A stretch of 31,984 bases of DNA from a virus. The notes beneath the pieces were generated by a model that was given only the letters and a program-made list of their open reading frames with translations, was not told where the DNA came from and did no database searches. Positions 1 to 26,055 of this stretch are shown here, piece by piece. A program made the position numbers and the translations under genes. Positions within the stretch are counted from its first letter, which is position 1. The number at the start of each line of letters is the position of its first letter. Location: positions 1 through 31,984 of the IMG/VR virus record IMGVR_UViG_3300042364_000603; one strand, 5' to 3'.

Positions 1-200
1 GGACCAAAGCGCATGGTAACGTGGATTATGGACGGCGAAACCAAAGCGGTTTTCGAGCCCATCCCGGAGCGGGAAGAACTGACTTTTGCGGAGGTCACCA
101 AACGGTTTTTTGATTTGGACTGGTGCGCAGCAAATCCAAACCACCCGATTTCCTACCTCCGAGCGTATCACGACAATTTGACGCACCTTCTCCGATTTGT
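1..200. repeat. terminal repeat, copy 1 (pairs with 31785-31984)
   Basis: The first 200 bases recur as the last 200 bases of the window. Positions 76-200 are identical in both copies. Positions 1-75 differ at eight sites (12, 18, 21, 45, 57, 63, 69, 75), all third codon positions of the gene that crosses the junction, and all synonymous. This is the overlap expected when a circular or terminally redundant phage genome is assembled as a linear contig; the differences look like natural strain variation. Confidence 0.93.
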
Positions 201-306
201 GAAGGCGTCGGCTCCCTCGGTACTGATTCGCCGGGGGAACAAAACCGTCGTGATCCCCGCAGACTGTCCCGCAGAAACGAAATCGAAATTCCTTCGGATG
301 CTATGA
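1..306 (+). CDS. 3' part of 150-aa tail-region protein crossing the contig ends
   Basis: This is the C-terminal 101 codons of a gene whose start lies at 31638. The reading frame enters at base 1 and ends at TGA 304-306. Joined through the terminal repeat it gives a 150-residue protein. The ATG at 13 is internal, because the other end copy shows the frame open upstream. The gene sits between two tail-tube candidates and the tail assembly chaperone and overlaps the chaperone start by ATGA at 303. I recognise no domain. The composition is soluble and mixed, without membrane segments. Its position suggests a tail or head-tail morphogenesis role, but that is inference from context only. Confidence 0.85.
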   Translation, partial: GPKRMVTWIMDGETKAVFEPIPEREELTFAEVTKRFFDLDWCAANPNHPISYLRAYHDNLTHLLRFVKASAPSVLIRRGNKTVVIPADCPAETKSKFLRML

Positions 307-4903: not shown

Positions 4904-6633
4904 ATACCTACGGACACCCGCACGCAATCCCGTTCTTTGAGCAGGCAATCGGCACCGCTCAAATCGGGCCGCTTGGCAATTCTCCTTTACCCGTGGCGCT
5001 GGTGGACATGCCGATTTCCGCGGCGTCATACCTGTACTACAAGGCCCAAGAAATTCAAAAGACGGTAGTCTGGACCCCGCTCGAGGAAGGTCCCGGGACG
5101 CGCGTCGATTACACCGGGGCGGATGGCTGGGATGAAGAGACGGGACAATTTACGACCACTTCTTCTATTCAGGTGCTCGACCCGCTCTTGATTCAATACA
5201 CGGCGCAGACGCCGGTGCCGGATCAGGAAAAGCGGGACGAGATTCGCGGATATGCTTTGAGTTCCGCGCAGCTCGACCCGTGGCCCGGGAAGTGGATCGG
5301 CATCCGAGCCTACGCTGAAAACCTAAGCGGTCCCTACGGTGTCCAACAAAGCGAAGTTGCCAACACGATGCGGTATGACCTCGCGCCGATCCCGTTTGAG
5401 TCGGCTCAAGTGGAGTTCATCGAAGCGAACTCCGCGGCTTTGCTCGCGTGGAAAACCCGTTTGGAAGACTGGCTTGCATCCGAGGAAGAAAAGGTTCCTC
5501 CGAACGAGGAACTCATCGCGGACATCGAACGGCAGCAGGAAGCGCAACTTCTCATTGAAACCCAAGTCGGGGAACAACAAACCGAGGTCATTTCGTGGCT
5601 CGCCCAGGTTCGAACGGACTTCGAGGAAATGTTCGGCTACACGGAAACCGAGCTTAATCGGCTTTGCCGGAACTCCCTCGCCATCGAGCAGGAAGCTTTT
5701 GCCCGCTGGATTGCGGCAGAGGAAAAGCTCGAAGCGTACGCAGCGACACAAGGGAACCTTTGGCGGCTTCGGATTCCGTTTCGGAATTGGGTCACCTTCG
5801 AGCTTCAACGGACTTTCGCGGGATGGTATCGAACGAGCAACCCGCTTGCGCCGGCGGATCAAACAACCTACGGGCTCGCCGGAGCTTTTCAGCCAGCGCT
5901 TGCATCCGCGGATGTCCCGGCGCTTTCTTCCGCGCAGCTTGTCTTCCGGTTCGAAGCGCTTCCTCCCGTGCTCTCGGAAGGGGACTTGAAAAACGCAGGC
6001 ACCGCGGCTTGTGCGACGATTTTCGAAACGTACTCCGAGGAATATCCTTACCCGGACACGTTAGAAGGAGGGATGGGGGACCCTTTGAGCACCGAGCAAA
6101 TTCAGAGCATTGCCCGGGTTGCGATCGGCCCCAGGCTTATCGGCACAAGCCCAGAAATGTGCAGCGCTTCGAGGCTTAAAGGCGACCTACCGAACACGGA
6201 CCCTTTGCTCGGGATTCTTAGTTGCTCGCTTCTCTCGGGGGTCTATTCGCTATCCGACCCCCCGGTGTATTTTTTCATCAATTTTCAGGACATTTTCGAT
6301 TTGGAAACGGGTGCACCGAAGGAACTCGACCTTGCATCCGTGCTTCCCTTCGAGGGCTCGAAAGCGTGGGCGTTTCAAAGTCCGTACGCAACATATGAAG
6401 AGGGGCCGCCGGAATCCGCGGACGTCAGCCCGCTTCACGAACTATGGCAGGCGATCGGGCTCGCTTACGCGGAGTTCAACACGGGAACAGCGCTCGGACC
6501 GGGAATTCCGGTCGGTACGTTTCGAATTGTGACTCCCGGGGACGTGACGATCTACCAAACTCCGCTCTATGCGGCGGAGAACACGGTTCTCGGGCTTTCC
6601 ATCACGTTGCAGGTAATCACGGAGCGGACTTAA
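4900..6633 (+). CDS. large distal tail protein candidate, 577 aa
   Basis: The start is taken as GTG 4900, which overlaps the previous stop as GTGA; no in-frame ATG exists near it upstream. The protein has a helical, Glu-rich middle (residues about 180-290, with 'EEKVPPNEELIADIERQQEA') flanked by beta-rich, Pro- and Trp-containing regions. It is the last plus-strand gene of the late module and ends at TAA 6631-6633, sharing bases with the stop of the convergent lysozyme gene. A hub, baseplate or fibre-attachment role fits the position. I recognise no family. Confidence 0.7.
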   Translation: MNTYGHPHAIPFFEQAIGTAQIGPLGNSPLPVALVDMPISAASYLYYKAQEIQKTVVWTPLEEGPGTRVDYTGADGWDEETGQFTTTSSIQVLDPLLIQYTAQTPVPDQEKRDEIRGYALSSAQLDPWPGKWIGIRAYAENLSGPYGVQQSEVANTMRYDLAPIPFESAQVEFIEANSAALLAWKTRLEDWLASEEEKVPPNEELIADIERQQEAQLLIETQVGEQQTEVISWLAQVRTDFEEMFGYTETELNRLCRNSLAIEQEAFARWIAAEEKLEAYAATQGNLWRLRIPFRNWVTFELQRTFAGWYRTSNPLAPADQTTYGLAGAFQPALASADVPALSSAQLVFRFEALPPVLSEGDLKNAGTAACATIFETYSEEYPYPDTLEGGMGDPLSTEQIQSIARVAIGPRLIGTSPEMCSASRLKGDLPNTDPLLGILSCSLLSGVYSLSDPPVYFFINFQDIFDLETGAPKELDLASVLPFEGSKAWAFQSPYATYEEGPPESADVSPLHELWQAIGLAYAEFNTGTALGPGIPVGTFRIVTPGDVTIYQTPLYAAENTVLGLSITLQVITERT

Positions 6634-12781: not shown

Positions 12782-13110
12782 AATTCGGTAACACTCCCGG
12801 ATATCGTGACCTTACCTTCGAGCAAACGCAGCTTCCGCGCGTCGGGAAGCGTGGCGAGCAGATCCCACCGAGCGTTCTGGGCTTGGAGGTTGTCGGTCGT
12901 CGCGGCATCGAGACCGATCCGAAGCGTTTGAGTGTCCGAATCAAGGGACACATCGAAATCCGCCAAAAGGGTTCCATCGACCGTGGTGCGGAGTTGAGCG
13001 GCGAAGGACCACTCGCTCAGGTCCTGGACCTCCTCGTTAATTTTTACCCGGAGGCCAAGCGCGAAGTCCGCTCCCTCCTCGATCGTGAAGTTATAAAGAC
13101 CCGCGGGCAT
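12778..13110 (-). CDS. small fibre-base structural protein, 110 aa
   Basis: This first gene of the leftward module starts MPAGLYNFTIEEGADFALGL and continues as a beta-rich protein with 'DLSEWSFAAQLRTTVDG'. Proteins of this size and N-terminal form, M-A-G-Y-x-I-x-x-G-A-x-F followed by a D-L-x-x-(Y/W) strand, are common beside tail fibres, and I take it as a fibre attachment or baseplate-periphery subunit. No clear Shine-Dalgarno site precedes ATG 13110. Its stop overlaps the fibre start by ATGA. Confidence 0.75.
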   Translation of the reverse strand: MPAGLYNFTIEEGADFALGLRVKINEEVQDLSEWSFAAQLRTTVDGTLLADFDVSLDSDTQTLRIGLDAATTDNLQAQNARWDLLATLPDARKLRLLEGKVTISGSVTEL

Positions 13111-20007: not shown

Positions 20008-20884
20008 AGCCCGGTCGGCTTGGGCGCTCATACAGATTACCGAACAACTCAGCGGAAACCCGGACGGTTGGATCGCGAAAACCGAACTTATCCTCCGAAC
20101 GAACCTCCGACTGAAAACCGCGGAGGCCTCCGGCCTGTTCGAGTTCCGGGGGGAACTGCTACGCCCCCGGGGATACCCGGTCGGCTTGGTTGCTCGGGAT
20201 CGGGCACTCTCGGAATCCGCAAAAAGACGGAACTCCCAATTATTGGAAAGGCGTCGAAAAAAGCGATCGAAAGCAACTCACTCCGAACGGGTTAACACGG
20301 GGTCCCAATTATTGGTAGCCGCGGAACTCCAATTATTGGAAGCGACGTCGAAAAACGGCGCGGAACACATTCGCTCTGAGGAAGATAACGCTAGGCTCCA
20401 ATTATTGGAAGGCGTGGAAAATCAAATTTGCTCGACACAAGAGAAAGTATCTATATATACTAAGGATCTACAAGGAACCGAGGATCTAAAGGACTCTGAG
20501 AGTACCTTAAGAAATTCTCCTTCTTGGAGAGATAGGGGATTGAAAGGGGGAAGAGAGGAAAGGAGCAAAATTCTCCCGGGTTGGGTTCAAGCTTTGAGCT
20601 TCCCGACTTCCGAGGGATCGGAAGCGGAAATCACCCCTGAGGAGTGGGAGAATCTTCGTTCGTGTTTTTCCGAGGGACTACTTCACACCGAACTTCCCCT
20701 CGCGGCTTTTTGGCTCCGAACGAATCCAAAGCGCCGGAAAACCCGTGGAGGGCTGCTAAGGTTCCTTGGCGGGTGGATACAGCGCTCTAAGCTCAGACAG
20801 GCCCAGAACGACCAGCAAACGCCGGGAACGGGGAAGAAAAAGAGGCGCGATGAGTGGGAAGGCGTTTGGAGGGTCGGAAAATGA
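19952..20884 (+). CDS. replication initiator-like protein (lambda O-like organisation), 310 aa
   Basis: The protein begins MNLPTKFLRGPEWAKAPLEA, with a wHTH-like N-terminal part ('WALIQITEQLSGNPDGWIAK', 'TELILRTNLRLKTAEASGLF'), a low-complexity polar middle encoded by the iteron DNA (residues 95-153), and a C-terminal helical part ('FWLRTNPKRRKTRGGLLRFL') with a basic tail. It lies directly before a DnaB helicase gene, as O lies before P in lambda, and as in lambda O the middle of the gene contains the probable origin. It should bind the iterons and load helicase. Residue similarity to O is not obvious. Confidence 0.72.
   Translation: MNLPTKFLRGPEWAKAPLEARSAWALIQITEQLSGNPDGWIAKTELILRTNLRLKTAEASGLFEFRGELLRPRGYPVGLVARDRALSESAKRRNSQLLERRRKKRSKATHSERVNTGSQLLVAAELQLLEATSKNGAEHIRSEEDNARLQLLEGVENQICSTQEKVSIYTKDLQGTEDLKDSESTLRNSPSWRDRGLKGGREERSKILPGWVQALSFPTSEGSEAEITPEEWENLRSCFSEGLLHTELPLAAFWLRTNPKRRKTRGGLLRFLGGWIQRSKLRQAQNDQQTPGTGKKKRRDEWEGVWRVGK
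20236..20408. repeat. four iterons, CCAATTATTGG
   Basis: The 11-mer CCAATTATTGG, a perfect inverted repeat around its central T, occurs exactly at 20236-20246, 20305-20315, 20329-20339 and 20398-20408. Start-to-start spacings are 69, 24 and 69 bases, a mirror-symmetric and in-frame arrangement. Copies 1 and 3 also share a flanking CGTCGAAAAA on their right. They are the expected binding sites of the initiator. Confidence 0.85.
20236..20530. other. probable phage replication origin
   Basis: The iteron array is followed by an AT-rich stretch: 20421-20520 is about 37% GC by count in a genome near 60%, with ATCTATATATAC at 20450-20461 and a doubled AGGATCTA (20463-20470 and 20481-20488). Iterons plus an unwinding element inside the initiator gene, upstream of a helicase gene, is the lambda plan. 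The element ends about where the GC returns to normal. Confidence 0.78.
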
Positions 20885-22265: not shown

Positions 22266-22297
22266 GCCCCTTTTCCGAGTGGAAGAGGGGCTTTTCC
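22266..22297 (+). terminator. rho-independent terminator after helicase
   Basis: GCCCCTTTTCC (22266-22276) pairs with GGAAGAGGGGC (22281-22291), 11 bp with one G-U, over a GAGT loop, followed by TTTTCCTT. It closes the early operon. The gap to the next gene (22298-22377) also holds a CCCCCCCGGGGG run. Confidence 0.8.
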
Positions 22298-22377
22298 TTG
22301 GTGGAATCCCCCCCGGGGGAAGGAATCTCTTTGGCCTCAGCGAATTGCCGGACCCCGATTCAGCGCAGACAGAGGCT

Positions 22378-23070
22378 ATGAGCGAACCAAAAAGTTACCG
22401 GTTGCAAGCCCGGAGCATTGAAAACGTCAAAACGACGGCCCTTTTAGGCTTTGAAAAGAACGCTAGAAGGCATTCCGAGGAGCAACTAGAGCAAATTGCG
22501 GCTTCGATTCGGGAATTCGGGTTCACAAACCCCATCTTGATCGATTCGCGAAACGGAATTGTCGCCGGACACGGAAGGGTTGCCGCTGCTCAAAAACTTG
22601 GGCTTGAGGAGGTACCTTGCATTCGGCTCGGGGAATTATCCGAGCGTCAAAAACGAGCCTACATTCTGGCCGATAACAAAATCGCCCTTAACTCCGACTG
22701 GAACGAAACGCTCTTGGCGATGGAACTTCAGAAACTCCGGGACGAGGAATTCGACATTGCCCTCACCGGCTTTTCGGATGCAGAACTGGACGCGCTTTTG
22801 AGTGACCTTGCGCCTCAAGCGGAAGACGACGACGAGGAGGGCGAAGTGCCCCAGGCTATTCAACTCGAACCTCCGCGGGAATACGCGGTTGTGATGTGCG
22901 ACAACTCGGAAGAGTGGGAGGCGCTTAAGGTTGCTCTGAACCTTGTGCCCGTTCGGCGTGGAGGCTACAAAAAAGGCTCGCCGTTCGAATCAGTCGGCAC
23001 ACAACGAGTTGTAAAAGCGGCGGACGTTCTCAAGAAATTCTCAGACAATGCTCATAGCAATTCCCTCTAA
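22378..23070 (+). CDS. ParB-like N-terminal domain protein, 230 aa
   Basis: Residues 10-115 are a ParB/Srx-type domain: 'KNARRHSEEQLEQIAASIRE', 'NPILIDSRNGIVAGHGR' (the GHGR box at 64-67) and 'RAYILADNKIALNSDWNE'. An acidic linker (147-156) leads to a small C-terminal domain ('YAVVMCDNSEEWEALK', 'RRGGYKKGSPFESVGTQRVV'). Phage proteins with this domain often act in DNA-modification clusters rather than segregation, and in ParB-methylase fusions the C-terminal part is a methyltransferase; here it is not. The start ATG 22378 has a CTATG context. It overlaps the TAGT-like gene by 23 bases, tying the two together. Confidence 0.85.
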   Translation: MSEPKSYRLQARSIENVKTTALLGFEKNARRHSEEQLEQIAASIREFGFTNPILIDSRNGIVAGHGRVAAAQKLGLEEVPCIRLGELSERQKRAYILADNKIALNSDWNETLLAMELQKLRDEEFDIALTGFSDAELDALLSDLAPQAEDDDEEGEVPQAIQLEPPREYAVVMCDNSEEWEALKVALNLVPVRRGGYKKGSPFESVGTQRVVKAADVLKKFSDNAHSNSL

Positions 23071-23764
23071 GGGCCGGGCCGGACGGGTAAAAAGCCAGAA
23101 GCTTCTTCGGGCTTCCGTGGTCTACGTTCCAGAGCTTGAGGTGGAAGCGTACCAAACCGCTGGCACAAAAAACGTAGTTGGAGTGCCAAACGAAATTCGC
23201 GGAATCACTGCCACGCGGAATTGGATTTTAAGGAATTGCGGGGACGAACGGGTTGTGATGGTCGACGACGACCTCAAAAACCAAGGGTTCGTAAAACTTT
23301 TTGCCAGAGAAACAAAACACAAAAAAATGTCCGAGGATGAATGGCTCGGCGAATTCACAAAACTTTTCGAACTCACCGAGGGACTTCGGTACCGCATCTG
23401 GGGAGTTTCGACTGAATCCGCTGCGCGGTCGGTGTATCCCTACAAACCGTTTTTCTGGAAGAGCTACATCACCGCTTCATGCATGGGGATTGTGAACGAC
23501 GGGCGGACCTACTTCGATGAATCGTTCCGGGTAAAAGAAGACTACGAACTGAACCTCCGGTGCATTAAGGAGGACGGGGGAATCGTGGCGGCGCGGTATC
23601 TGTACTGGGAAAACGAGCATTGGGAAACGGAAGGGGGATGCAAAGACTACCGGACCCAAGCGATGGAACGGGACGCGATTAAGCGGCTTCAAAAAATGTA
23701 CCCCGGCATGATTCGCGTAACGAAGCGGGCGAACTCGGAATTCTGCGTACAGATTGAAAACTGA
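23048..23764 (+). CDS. TET-associated glycosyltransferase-like (TAGT) GT-A enzyme
   Basis: This 238-residue protein starts with 'IPSKGRAG' (residues 5-12), then 'TATRNWIL', a DDD metal motif 'VVMVDDDL' (Asp73-75), and 'KEDYELNLRCI' (about 163-173) in the place of the catalytic acidic residue of GT-A enzymes. IPSKGRA and DDD are hallmarks of the TAGT family, proposed and partly shown to add sugars to hydroxymethylated bases in phage DNA. It is coupled to the ParB-like gene and precedes the terminase. I find no TET/JBP oxygenase or hydroxymethylase here, so the acceptor is open: a host-made base, another modification or a protein. The family assignment is from motifs and memory, not from a search. 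Confidence 0.75.
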   Translation: MLIAIPSKGRAGRVKSQKLLRASVVYVPELEVEAYQTAGTKNVVGVPNEIRGITATRNWILRNCGDERVVMVDDDLKNQGFVKLFARETKHKKMSEDEWLGEFTKLFELTEGLRYRIWGVSTESAARSVYPYKPFFWKSYITASCMGIVNDGRTYFDESFRVKEDYELNLRCIKEDGGIVAARYLYWENEHWETEGGCKDYRTQAMERDAIKRLQKMYPGMIRVTKRANSEFCVQIEN

Positions 23765-24359: not shown

Positions 24360-26055
24360 GGCGGCGGCGAACGGGCGGTTCACCGGGTGCCCGTTGGATT
24401 GGATGGAGCGGAACATTGTCCTGCCGCACTCTGCTCGGGCGACACGGTTTGACCGGGAAGTTGCTCCGCAGCTGAACGACATCATTCGCACCTTCGCCTC
24501 GGGAGAATTCCGGCAAATCGCGATCCGGGCCCCGGTCGGCGGCGGGAAGACAACGCTCCTCGAACTTCTGGTGCCCTACGTTGTCGCCGAGGACCCCGGG
24601 GGGATGCTGTTAGTCGGACAGTCGGACGACATGGCGAAAGACTTTGCCGAAACTCGGTTGCTTCCAATTCTCAAAGGCTGCGAAAAGACCGCTCGGCTTT
24701 TCCCGTCCGATCGGCACCAGAAACGAAAAACGAGCATCCTTTTTCCTCACATGCCTTTGTTTATCGCAGGGGCAAACTTAAGTTCTCTTCAGGAAAAATC
24801 GATGCGCTACGTCTGGATGGATGAACTTTGGAGGTGGAAAGCGGGAATGATCGGGGAGGCGCAGCGGAGAACGCATGATCGCTGGAATTCGGTCATCATT
24901 GGAGTTTCGCAGGGGTGGGACGATACGCACGACGCGGAAGCGTTTTTCAACGCGGGCGAGCAACACCAATGGGGCGTGGCTTGTCCCGGGTGCGGGGAGT
25001 GGCACCGCATGATTTGGAGCAACGTGAAATGGGATAACGTGTACCGAGGAACACAGCCAGACTGGGAGGCGATCGGGAATTCGGTTCGGTACCAATGCCC
25101 AAAATGCAAGCACGAGAGCCCGGACACGTCGAACGCCCGGCGGGAACTCGCAAACCGGGGGCGATGGCAGAAGGCCCCCTCAAACTCAATCGCCGGGTGC
25201 CGCTCCTTTCATTATTCGGCGCTCGCCGTGTACTGGATACCGTGGAGAGACTTGGTCGTCGAATGGATCAAGGCGGACATCCTTCGGAAAGCGGGGGACC
25301 TTTCAGCGCTTCGGCAGTTCCTTCAAAAGCGGCTTGCGGAGGTTTGGAAAGAGGAGATTAACCAAGCACCCGTCGACCTCCGGGGGGCAAATTACAACAA
25401 GGCGGACTACACCGAGGGACAGAAGATTGAAGATGAGGTTTGGCGCTTCCTGACGATCGATCGCCAGCAGGATCATTGGTGGGCCCTGTGCCGTGCGTGG
25501 AGGGCGGACGGAACAAGCCGCTTGATTTGGGAGGGGATGGTCCTCACGCTGGAAACGATTCGACACCTTCAAGAGACCCTCGGGGTGCGGGATGTGTGCG
25601 TTTTTCAGGACTCGGGCTATTCCGCGGGAACCGTATACGACGAGTGCGGAGCGAATAATTGGAACGCGATGAAAGGCTCCGGGATGGGCGGCTTTTGGGT
25701 CGGAGGCGCAAAGCGACGGTACCAGCGACCGTTTTCGGAACCCGGGGTCGTTCGCGGACCTAAAGGGCACGTTTGCAAGCTCATCGTTTGGTCGAATGAG
25801 GTGATCAAAGATGAGCTTGTGAAACTAAGGGCAAAGGGAGCACCGACTTGGGAGCACCCGAAGGACGTTTCGCAGGACTGGCTCGCCCACATGACCTCCG
25901 AAATCAAACGGGACACGATCGACTCCAAAACCAAGCAGGTGAAACAGCGCTACGTTCAAGTGAAGGGCGAGAACCACCTCTGGGATTGCGAGGCAATGCA
26001 GGTTGTCGCGGCGGCGCACTTCGGGGTGCTCGGCAAAATCGAGGCAAAAGATTGA
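24316..26055 (+). CDS. terminase large subunit, GpA (lambda) family
   Basis: The 579-residue packaging motor has a Walker A-like 'APVGGGKTT' (residues 72-80), Walker B 'YVWMDE' (165-170), 'VIIGVSQGWDD' as the coupling motif, a zinc site of two CxxC (223-226 and 261-264), and a C-terminal nuclease part with 'LTIDRQQDHWW' and later acidic residues. This layout belongs to GpA-like terminases, which cut at cos and pump DNA into the prohead. Start ATG 24316 is preceded by GGAGGA; the frame is open upstream to 24271 but lies in the small subunit. No cos site could be recognised. Confidence 0.93.
   Translation: MQAGNEIDPLFRKLRAAANGRFTGCPLDWMERNIVLPHSARATRFDREVAPQLNDIIRTFASGEFRQIAIRAPVGGGKTTLLELLVPYVVAEDPGGMLLVGQSDDMAKDFAETRLLPILKGCEKTARLFPSDRHQKRKTSILFPHMPLFIAGANLSSLQEKSMRYVWMDELWRWKAGMIGEAQRRTHDRWNSVIIGVSQGWDDTHDAEAFFNAGEQHQWGVACPGCGEWHRMIWSNVKWDNVYRGTQPDWEAIGNSVRYQCPKCKHESPDTSNARRELANRGRWQKAPSNSIAGCRSFHYSALAVYWIPWRDLVVEWIKADILRKAGDLSALRQFLQKRLAEVWKEEINQAPVDLRGANYNKADYTEGQKIEDEVWRFLTIDRQQDHWWALCRAWRADGTSRLIWEGMVLTLETIRHLQETLGVRDVCVFQDSGYSAGTVYDECGANNWNAMKGSGMGGFWVGGAKRRYQRPFSEPGVVRGPKGHVCKLIVWSNEVIKDELVKLRAKGAPTWEHPKDVSQDWLAHMTSEIKRDTIDSKTKQVKQRYVQVKGENHLWDCEAMQVVAAAHFGVLGKIEAKD

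Follow-up and report, generated by a model that had tools for sequence, protein, structure and literature searches.

A well-supported candidate replication origin inside the initiator gene of a tailed phage, with an iteron array that probably stems from an in-frame duplication

Why should a phage gene that runs into the gene for a replicative helicase carry, in the middle of its coding sequence, four identical copies of the palindromic 11-mer CCAATTATTGG? The copies lie in a virus record from IMG/VR that is 31,984 bp long and was analysed in full (here called the window), and an earlier note made from the sequence had read them as a lambda-like replication origin set within the initiator gene, with a mirror-symmetric spacing attributed to two initiator dimers of dimers. 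The features discussed below are collected in Table 1.

Table 1. Features of the replication locus, the encoded initiator and the repeat arrays of its relatives
Feature	Position	Strand	Basis or remark
Initiator gene, 310 aa	19952..20884	+	ORF, AlphaFold models, VIA-align, C-terminal motif
Predicted N-terminal winged helix	residues ~7-92		AlphaFold (moderate confidence), VIA-align
Predicted disordered linker	residues ~110-205		AlphaFold (low confidence)
Predicted helical C-terminal domain	residues ~208-287		AlphaFold
Iteron 1, CCAATTATTGG	20236..20246	+	Exact-copy search
Iteron 2, CCAATTATTGG	20305..20315	+	Exact-copy search
Iteron 3, CCAATTATTGG	20329..20339	+	Exact-copy search
Iteron 4, CCAATTATTGG	20398..20408	+	Exact-copy search
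Duplication unit A, 93 bp, two iterons 69 bp apart	20236..20328	+	Unit A/B interior comparison, self-shift scan
Duplication unit B, 93 bp	20329..20421	+	Unit A/B interior comparison, self-shift scan
Putative DNA unwinding element	20418..20517	+	Nearest-neighbour stability scan; contains TATATATA at 20452-20459
TTGCTCGACACAAGA, 15-nt exact match to L021 initiator gene	20428..20442	+	Left edge of the melting element
Sigma70-like hexamer pair TCGACA-18-TATACT	20432-20461	+	Overlaps TTGCTCGACACAAGA; recurs in L021/L095
DnaB-like replicative helicase gene, 445 aa	20881..22218	+	PF03796 E 2.7e-41; phrog_19 E 1.5e-51
ParB-like protein (ParB-N domain) gene	22279-23070
Array in L021 and L095			CCAATGCT x5, 8-bp period, ending in palindrome CCAATGCATTGG
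Array in L045 and L097			GAGACRTCTC-type x5, 11-bp period
Array in L102			AASACGTCTT-type x5, 11-bp period

The window encodes a GpA-type terminase, portal, head protease and major head protein, as well as tape measure and tail fibre genes, and therefore derives from a tailed phage. The nearest annotated phages are all distant, the best by terminase being Verrucomicrobia phage P8625 at 25% identity, and a scan of genome contigs revealed no close prophage, the best match being a partial one to the helicase (25%). Searches of the window for an exact terminal repeat of 11-200 bp and for tRNA or Rfam matches found none. Beyond the helicase gene, the ParB-like gene is followed by a gene encoding a TAGT-type glycosyltransferase (22279-23764 for the two), a possible DNA base modification cluster.

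An exact-copy search confirmed the four iterons as the earlier note had described them, with start-to-start spacings of 69, 24 and 69 that spread the sites over 173 bp (20236-20408). The 11-mer is palindromic save for its central base, and the ORF reading places all four copies in one frame of the initiator gene, each read as CAA TTA TTG (Q-L-L). No other exact copy is present in the window, the nearest further match being a site with one mismatch at 25652. TTA makes up only 3.4% of the leucine codons in the other genes of the record, and the probability of finding CAA TTA TTG, given Q-L-L, is ~0.0024 per copy. That the same rare codons recur at all four sites indicates that the constraint acts on the DNA and that the repeat is not a by-product of the protein. 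As a separate observation, a similar CGT-GAAAA stretch containing an A-tract comes after iterons 1, 3 and 4 (20244-20261, 20337-20355 and 20405-20422), possibly a site of bending. When IMG/VR was searched for pairs of CCAATTATTGG, other contigs with at least two copies were found (L004-L015), two of which were read; in L015 the copies belong to a duplication inside an apparent coding repeat and in L010 to a 13-bp tandem, neither contig aligns to the window, and both were set aside.

The DNA that adjoins the array is readily melted. Nearest-neighbour energies calculated across the whole record place the stability minimum, at both the 60- and 100-bp scales, at the putative unwinding element, which begins 10 bp after iteron 4; the 30-, 40- and 80-bp minima of the record lie inside the same element or end 1 bp past it. 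The lowest-GC 60-bp window of the record (30% GC) also starts at 20418. The AT-rich element that the earlier note had put after the array, at about 37% GC, is borne out at 38.5% over 20409-20530, and 20530 is a reasonable place to end it. The helicase gene expected downstream is also there, identified by matches to PF03796 and phrog_19. It shares 4 nt with the end of the initiator gene, and an initiator gene followed by a DnaB-like gene is the order of a P22-type replication module. The cumulative GC skew has its minimum at 12,836, near the switch in gene direction, and was on that account discarded as a test of the origin; it shows no minimum at the iteron array.

The protein encoded around the array has the architecture to be expected of an initiator that carries its own origin, insofar as this can be predicted. 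Structural comparison of residues 11-78 by VIA-align returned mostly winged-helix domains, with modest Z scores (up to 7.0), suggesting a DNA-binding N-terminus. In the full-length AlphaFold model, which was built on an alignment of six sequences, residues 111-150 have mean pLDDT values of ~39-46 per ten residues, whilst the C-terminal domain modelled alone exceeds 90 across most of its core. It is the presumably flexible linker between the two predicted domains that the array and melting element are predicted to encode. The C-terminal domain carries a motif, WL..N..RRKT..G..RF...WL, in common with gp42 of Ruminococcus phage phiRgIBDN1 (MT980840), annotated as a ‘replisome organizer’ (BLASTP 1e-6, hhalign 1e-6), and with a Vibrio phage protein. 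Neither Pfam nor NCBIfam gave a match to the 310-aa protein, PHROG gave none that was significant and no replisome-organizer model recognises it, although the initiator of its relative L021 gives a weak match to phrog_3926, ‘replication initiation protein’ (E 0.0015). The O-like PHROGs (phrog_277 and relatives), many of which are matched by lambda O, do not match it either, leaving the ‘replication initiation O-like’ family without support from sequence similarity, and the hhalign probabilities against lambda O and P22 gp18 are 0.2% and 0.1%, figures from a shallow profile (Neff 2) with which remote homology is compatible. Foldseek searches of the PDB with the whole model or the C-terminal domain gave no significant match, which has no bearing on fold novelty. 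The function suggested for the protein rests on the layout of the locus, the predicted fold and the C-terminal motif.

Related phages arrange their initiator genes in the same way. Terminase and helicase scans of IMG/VR yielded five related initiator genes (in L021, L095, L045, L097 and L102), the products of which are 22-38% identical to the 310-aa protein over the alignment; a near-identical contig, L001, contributes nothing as evidence of conservation. All five genes contain a repeat array, at 31-49% of the gene, with repeats that differ from CCAATTATTGG, so the evidence for conservation covers the layout and not the 11-mer itself. In each, the gene's least stable 40-mer lies 3′ of the array and ranks lowest, or close to lowest, in stability across the locus. 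The repeats of L021 and of L045/L097 were found only at those arrays when the records of the five relatives were searched. L097 and L102 are 83% identical overall, and their arrays keep five units and the 11-bp period whilst the unit sequence has changed. CCAAT half-sites are common to the window and L021 (CCAATGCT x5, CCAATGCATTGG), a suggestive likeness, although a 5-bp match is too short alone. TTGCTCGACACAAGA is the longest stretch that the initiator genes of the window and L021 have in common without a mismatch, and a scan of IMG/VR for it found an array alongside only in relatives already known, the other matches looking like chance.

Other phages with similar genes differ in this region. 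In L055, whose DnaB gene is 42% identical, there is no recognisable initiator or repeat array upstream of DnaB (5141-5675). L030 has a terminase ~70% identical to that of the window and no match to its initiator or DnaB helicase. By eye, an 889-aa ORF in L030 (4056-6725) looks like a primase/helicase, and GC-rich ACGCACGC repeats lie 3′ of it. Replication modules appear to be exchanged among phages such as L030 and that of the window.

The locus can also be set against systems that are already described. In P22 (NC_002371), the ori lies inside the initiator gene 18 (annotated 32840-32984), as proposed here; the DnaB-like gene 12 follows with the same 4-nt overlap, the two helicases are homologous (28% over 285 alignment columns) and A/T-rich DNA is found 3′ of the repeats. 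P22 differs in that its iterons are ~20 bp long and spaced at 20, 24 and 23, against 11 bp and 69, 24 and 69 here, and its initiator shows no detectable similarity. Lambda has four iterons, each bound by an O dimer, and a linker between the DNA-binding and P-binding domains of O, and its O-some makes the AT-rich DNA alongside less stable (PMC6022878). Its four palindromic iterons (NC_001416) lie at 39-48% of the O gene, with the least stable DNA directly 3′, but they are 18 bp long and spaced at 20, 24 and 23, the phage encodes the loader P and uses the host DnaB where the present phage has a DnaB-like helicase of its own, and no sequence similarity to O was detected. The phiRgIBDN1 gp42 gene (L118) carries TGTCAACC four times at 42-47% of its length; in both this gene and that for lambda O (L119) the 40-mer after the array ranks lowest, or nearly so, in stability within its locus. 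The N-terminus of gp42 is, however, dissimilar by BLASTP, the repeats are different and no annotated DnaB gene directly adjoins it. At 2357-2420 of L118, the TGTCAACC repeats and the AT-rich DNA after them are apparently that phage's own internal origin. The sites of the present array are spaced much more loosely than those of lambda, P22 or the relatives. ‘Lambda-like’ is apt for the layout, which resembles that of both lambda and P22, but nothing detected in the sequence places the initiator in the O protein family.

A first alternative is that the 11-mers are operators, bound by the initiator or another phage repressor to control transcription of the helicase gene from an internal promoter, with the origin elsewhere. 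Palindromes would suit a dimeric repressor, and 3′ of site 4 there is a sigma70-like hexamer pair that recurs in L021 and that may be an internal rightward promoter, whether for transcriptional activation of the origin or for helicase expression. Some 0.4 promoter-like matches are, however, expected by chance in the region scanned; the L097 and L118 genes, both with arrays, contain none, and the sole match in L102 and in L045 is close to the start of the gene and not by the melting element. An origin accounts better for four to five sites that lie in coding DNA next to both the helicase gene and the least stable stretch of the record, and we regard the operator reading as improbable.

More improbable still is that the 69-24-69 layout was selected as mirror-symmetric for two initiator assemblies, as the earlier note had suggested. 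The symmetry is exact, and sites 1 and 3, like sites 2 and 4, are 93 bp apart (~8.9 helical turns) and roughly in phase. Within a unit, however, 6.57 turns separate the two sites, leaving them out of phase by about half a turn, and no comparable mirror layout is seen in the relatives. A tandem unit of length p with two sites d apart must give spacings of d, p-d and d, here with d = 69 and p = 93, and the sequence between the sites bears the marks of such a unit. The unit interiors (20247-20304 and 20340-20397) are identical at 29 of 58 positions without gaps; their gapped score of 7 is attained by none of 5,174 control coding segments matched for codon phase, which have a mean score of -15.8 (sd 4.6). 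With the sites masked, the best of all shifts from 20 to 399 of the initiator gene against itself is again 93, at which 60% of 57 positions agree (mean 25.5%, sd 5.7). Since the homology of units A and B extends to the DNA between the sites, the symmetry follows automatically and needs no protein explanation. The simplest account of the layout is that a 93-bp unit holding two sites was long ago duplicated in tandem and in frame, as the sequence comparison supports. That the four sites are identical when the unit interiors have diverged to about 50% identity speaks in its own right for a function of the sites. Nor does the in-frame spacing, taken by the earlier note for a kept feature, amount to a design rule, the relatives' arrays having periods of 8 and 11 bp. 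A change in array size inside an initiator gene has a parallel in Stx phages, where two extra iterons in the O gene add 13 residues (PMC7466680); there the added iterons are of lambda type, whereas here a two-site unit of 93 bp would have been doubled.

The two remaining alternatives can be dismissed briefly. That selection acted on Q-L-L for its place in a coiled coil or linker, with the DNA repeat a by-product, would suit four in-frame QLL copies and the low-confidence helix modelled there, but is hardly credible given the identical rare codons, the low pLDDT over residues 111-150 and the relatives' 8- or 11-bp periods, which shift the frame between units so that no peptide is repeated. Equally remote is a parS-like partition site for the nearby ParB-like protein, which would account for palindromic repeats close to a ParB-N domain gene, since L045 has an array and no ParB-like match in its 17.7-kb locus (E 1e-3), the ParB-like protein of L021 is similar (49%) yet its array is different, and the neighbouring glycosyltransferase suggests a role in DNA modification instead.

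We therefore return to the earlier note's reading of an origin whose iterons lie inside the initiator gene, with a melting element beside them and the helicase gene downstream. It is now well supported, since six lines of evidence point the same way: clustered sites found nowhere else in the record, biased codon use, the record-wide stability minimum, the like layout of relatives with different repeats, the protein architecture and the 4-nt overlap shared with P22. By analogy with lambda and P22, initiation might proceed as follows. The N-terminal winged helix would bind each CCAATTATTGG, probably as a dimer; the bound initiators would assemble on the four sites, bend or loop the DNA and open up the AT-rich element beside them; and the C-terminal domain would load the helicase encoded by the next gene on the opened strands. 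Array and melting element would be tolerated within the gene because they are predicted to encode the flexible interdomain linker. The duplication of the two-site unit would have given the four-site mirror layout, after which the sites stayed identical whilst the remainder of the unit diverged. Taken as a whole, from initiator binding, melting and helicase loading to the duplication-born array, we consider this explanation very likely to be correct. Rather doubtful, by comparison, is the further proposal of an initiator family, unnamed in the libraries searched, in which the iterons change fast in sequence, period and number whilst array position, melting element and helicase stay fixed, and of initiation that, with the sites here spread over two duplicated units, may use looping between distant sites and not a compact O-some.

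The evidence for the origin is clear and the locus is ordinary in kind, origins within their own initiator genes being known already from lambda and P22, although the initiator family is unnamed in the libraries searched. What it adds is that iteron arrays are able to grow through duplication within a gene and that symmetric iteron spacing does not have to imply a symmetric protein assembly. Together with L021/L095, L045/L097 and L102, the phage of the window forms a small natural series in which related initiators are paired with different iterons at a like position in the gene, a series in which it can be tested how an initiator co-evolves with the sequence that encodes it.
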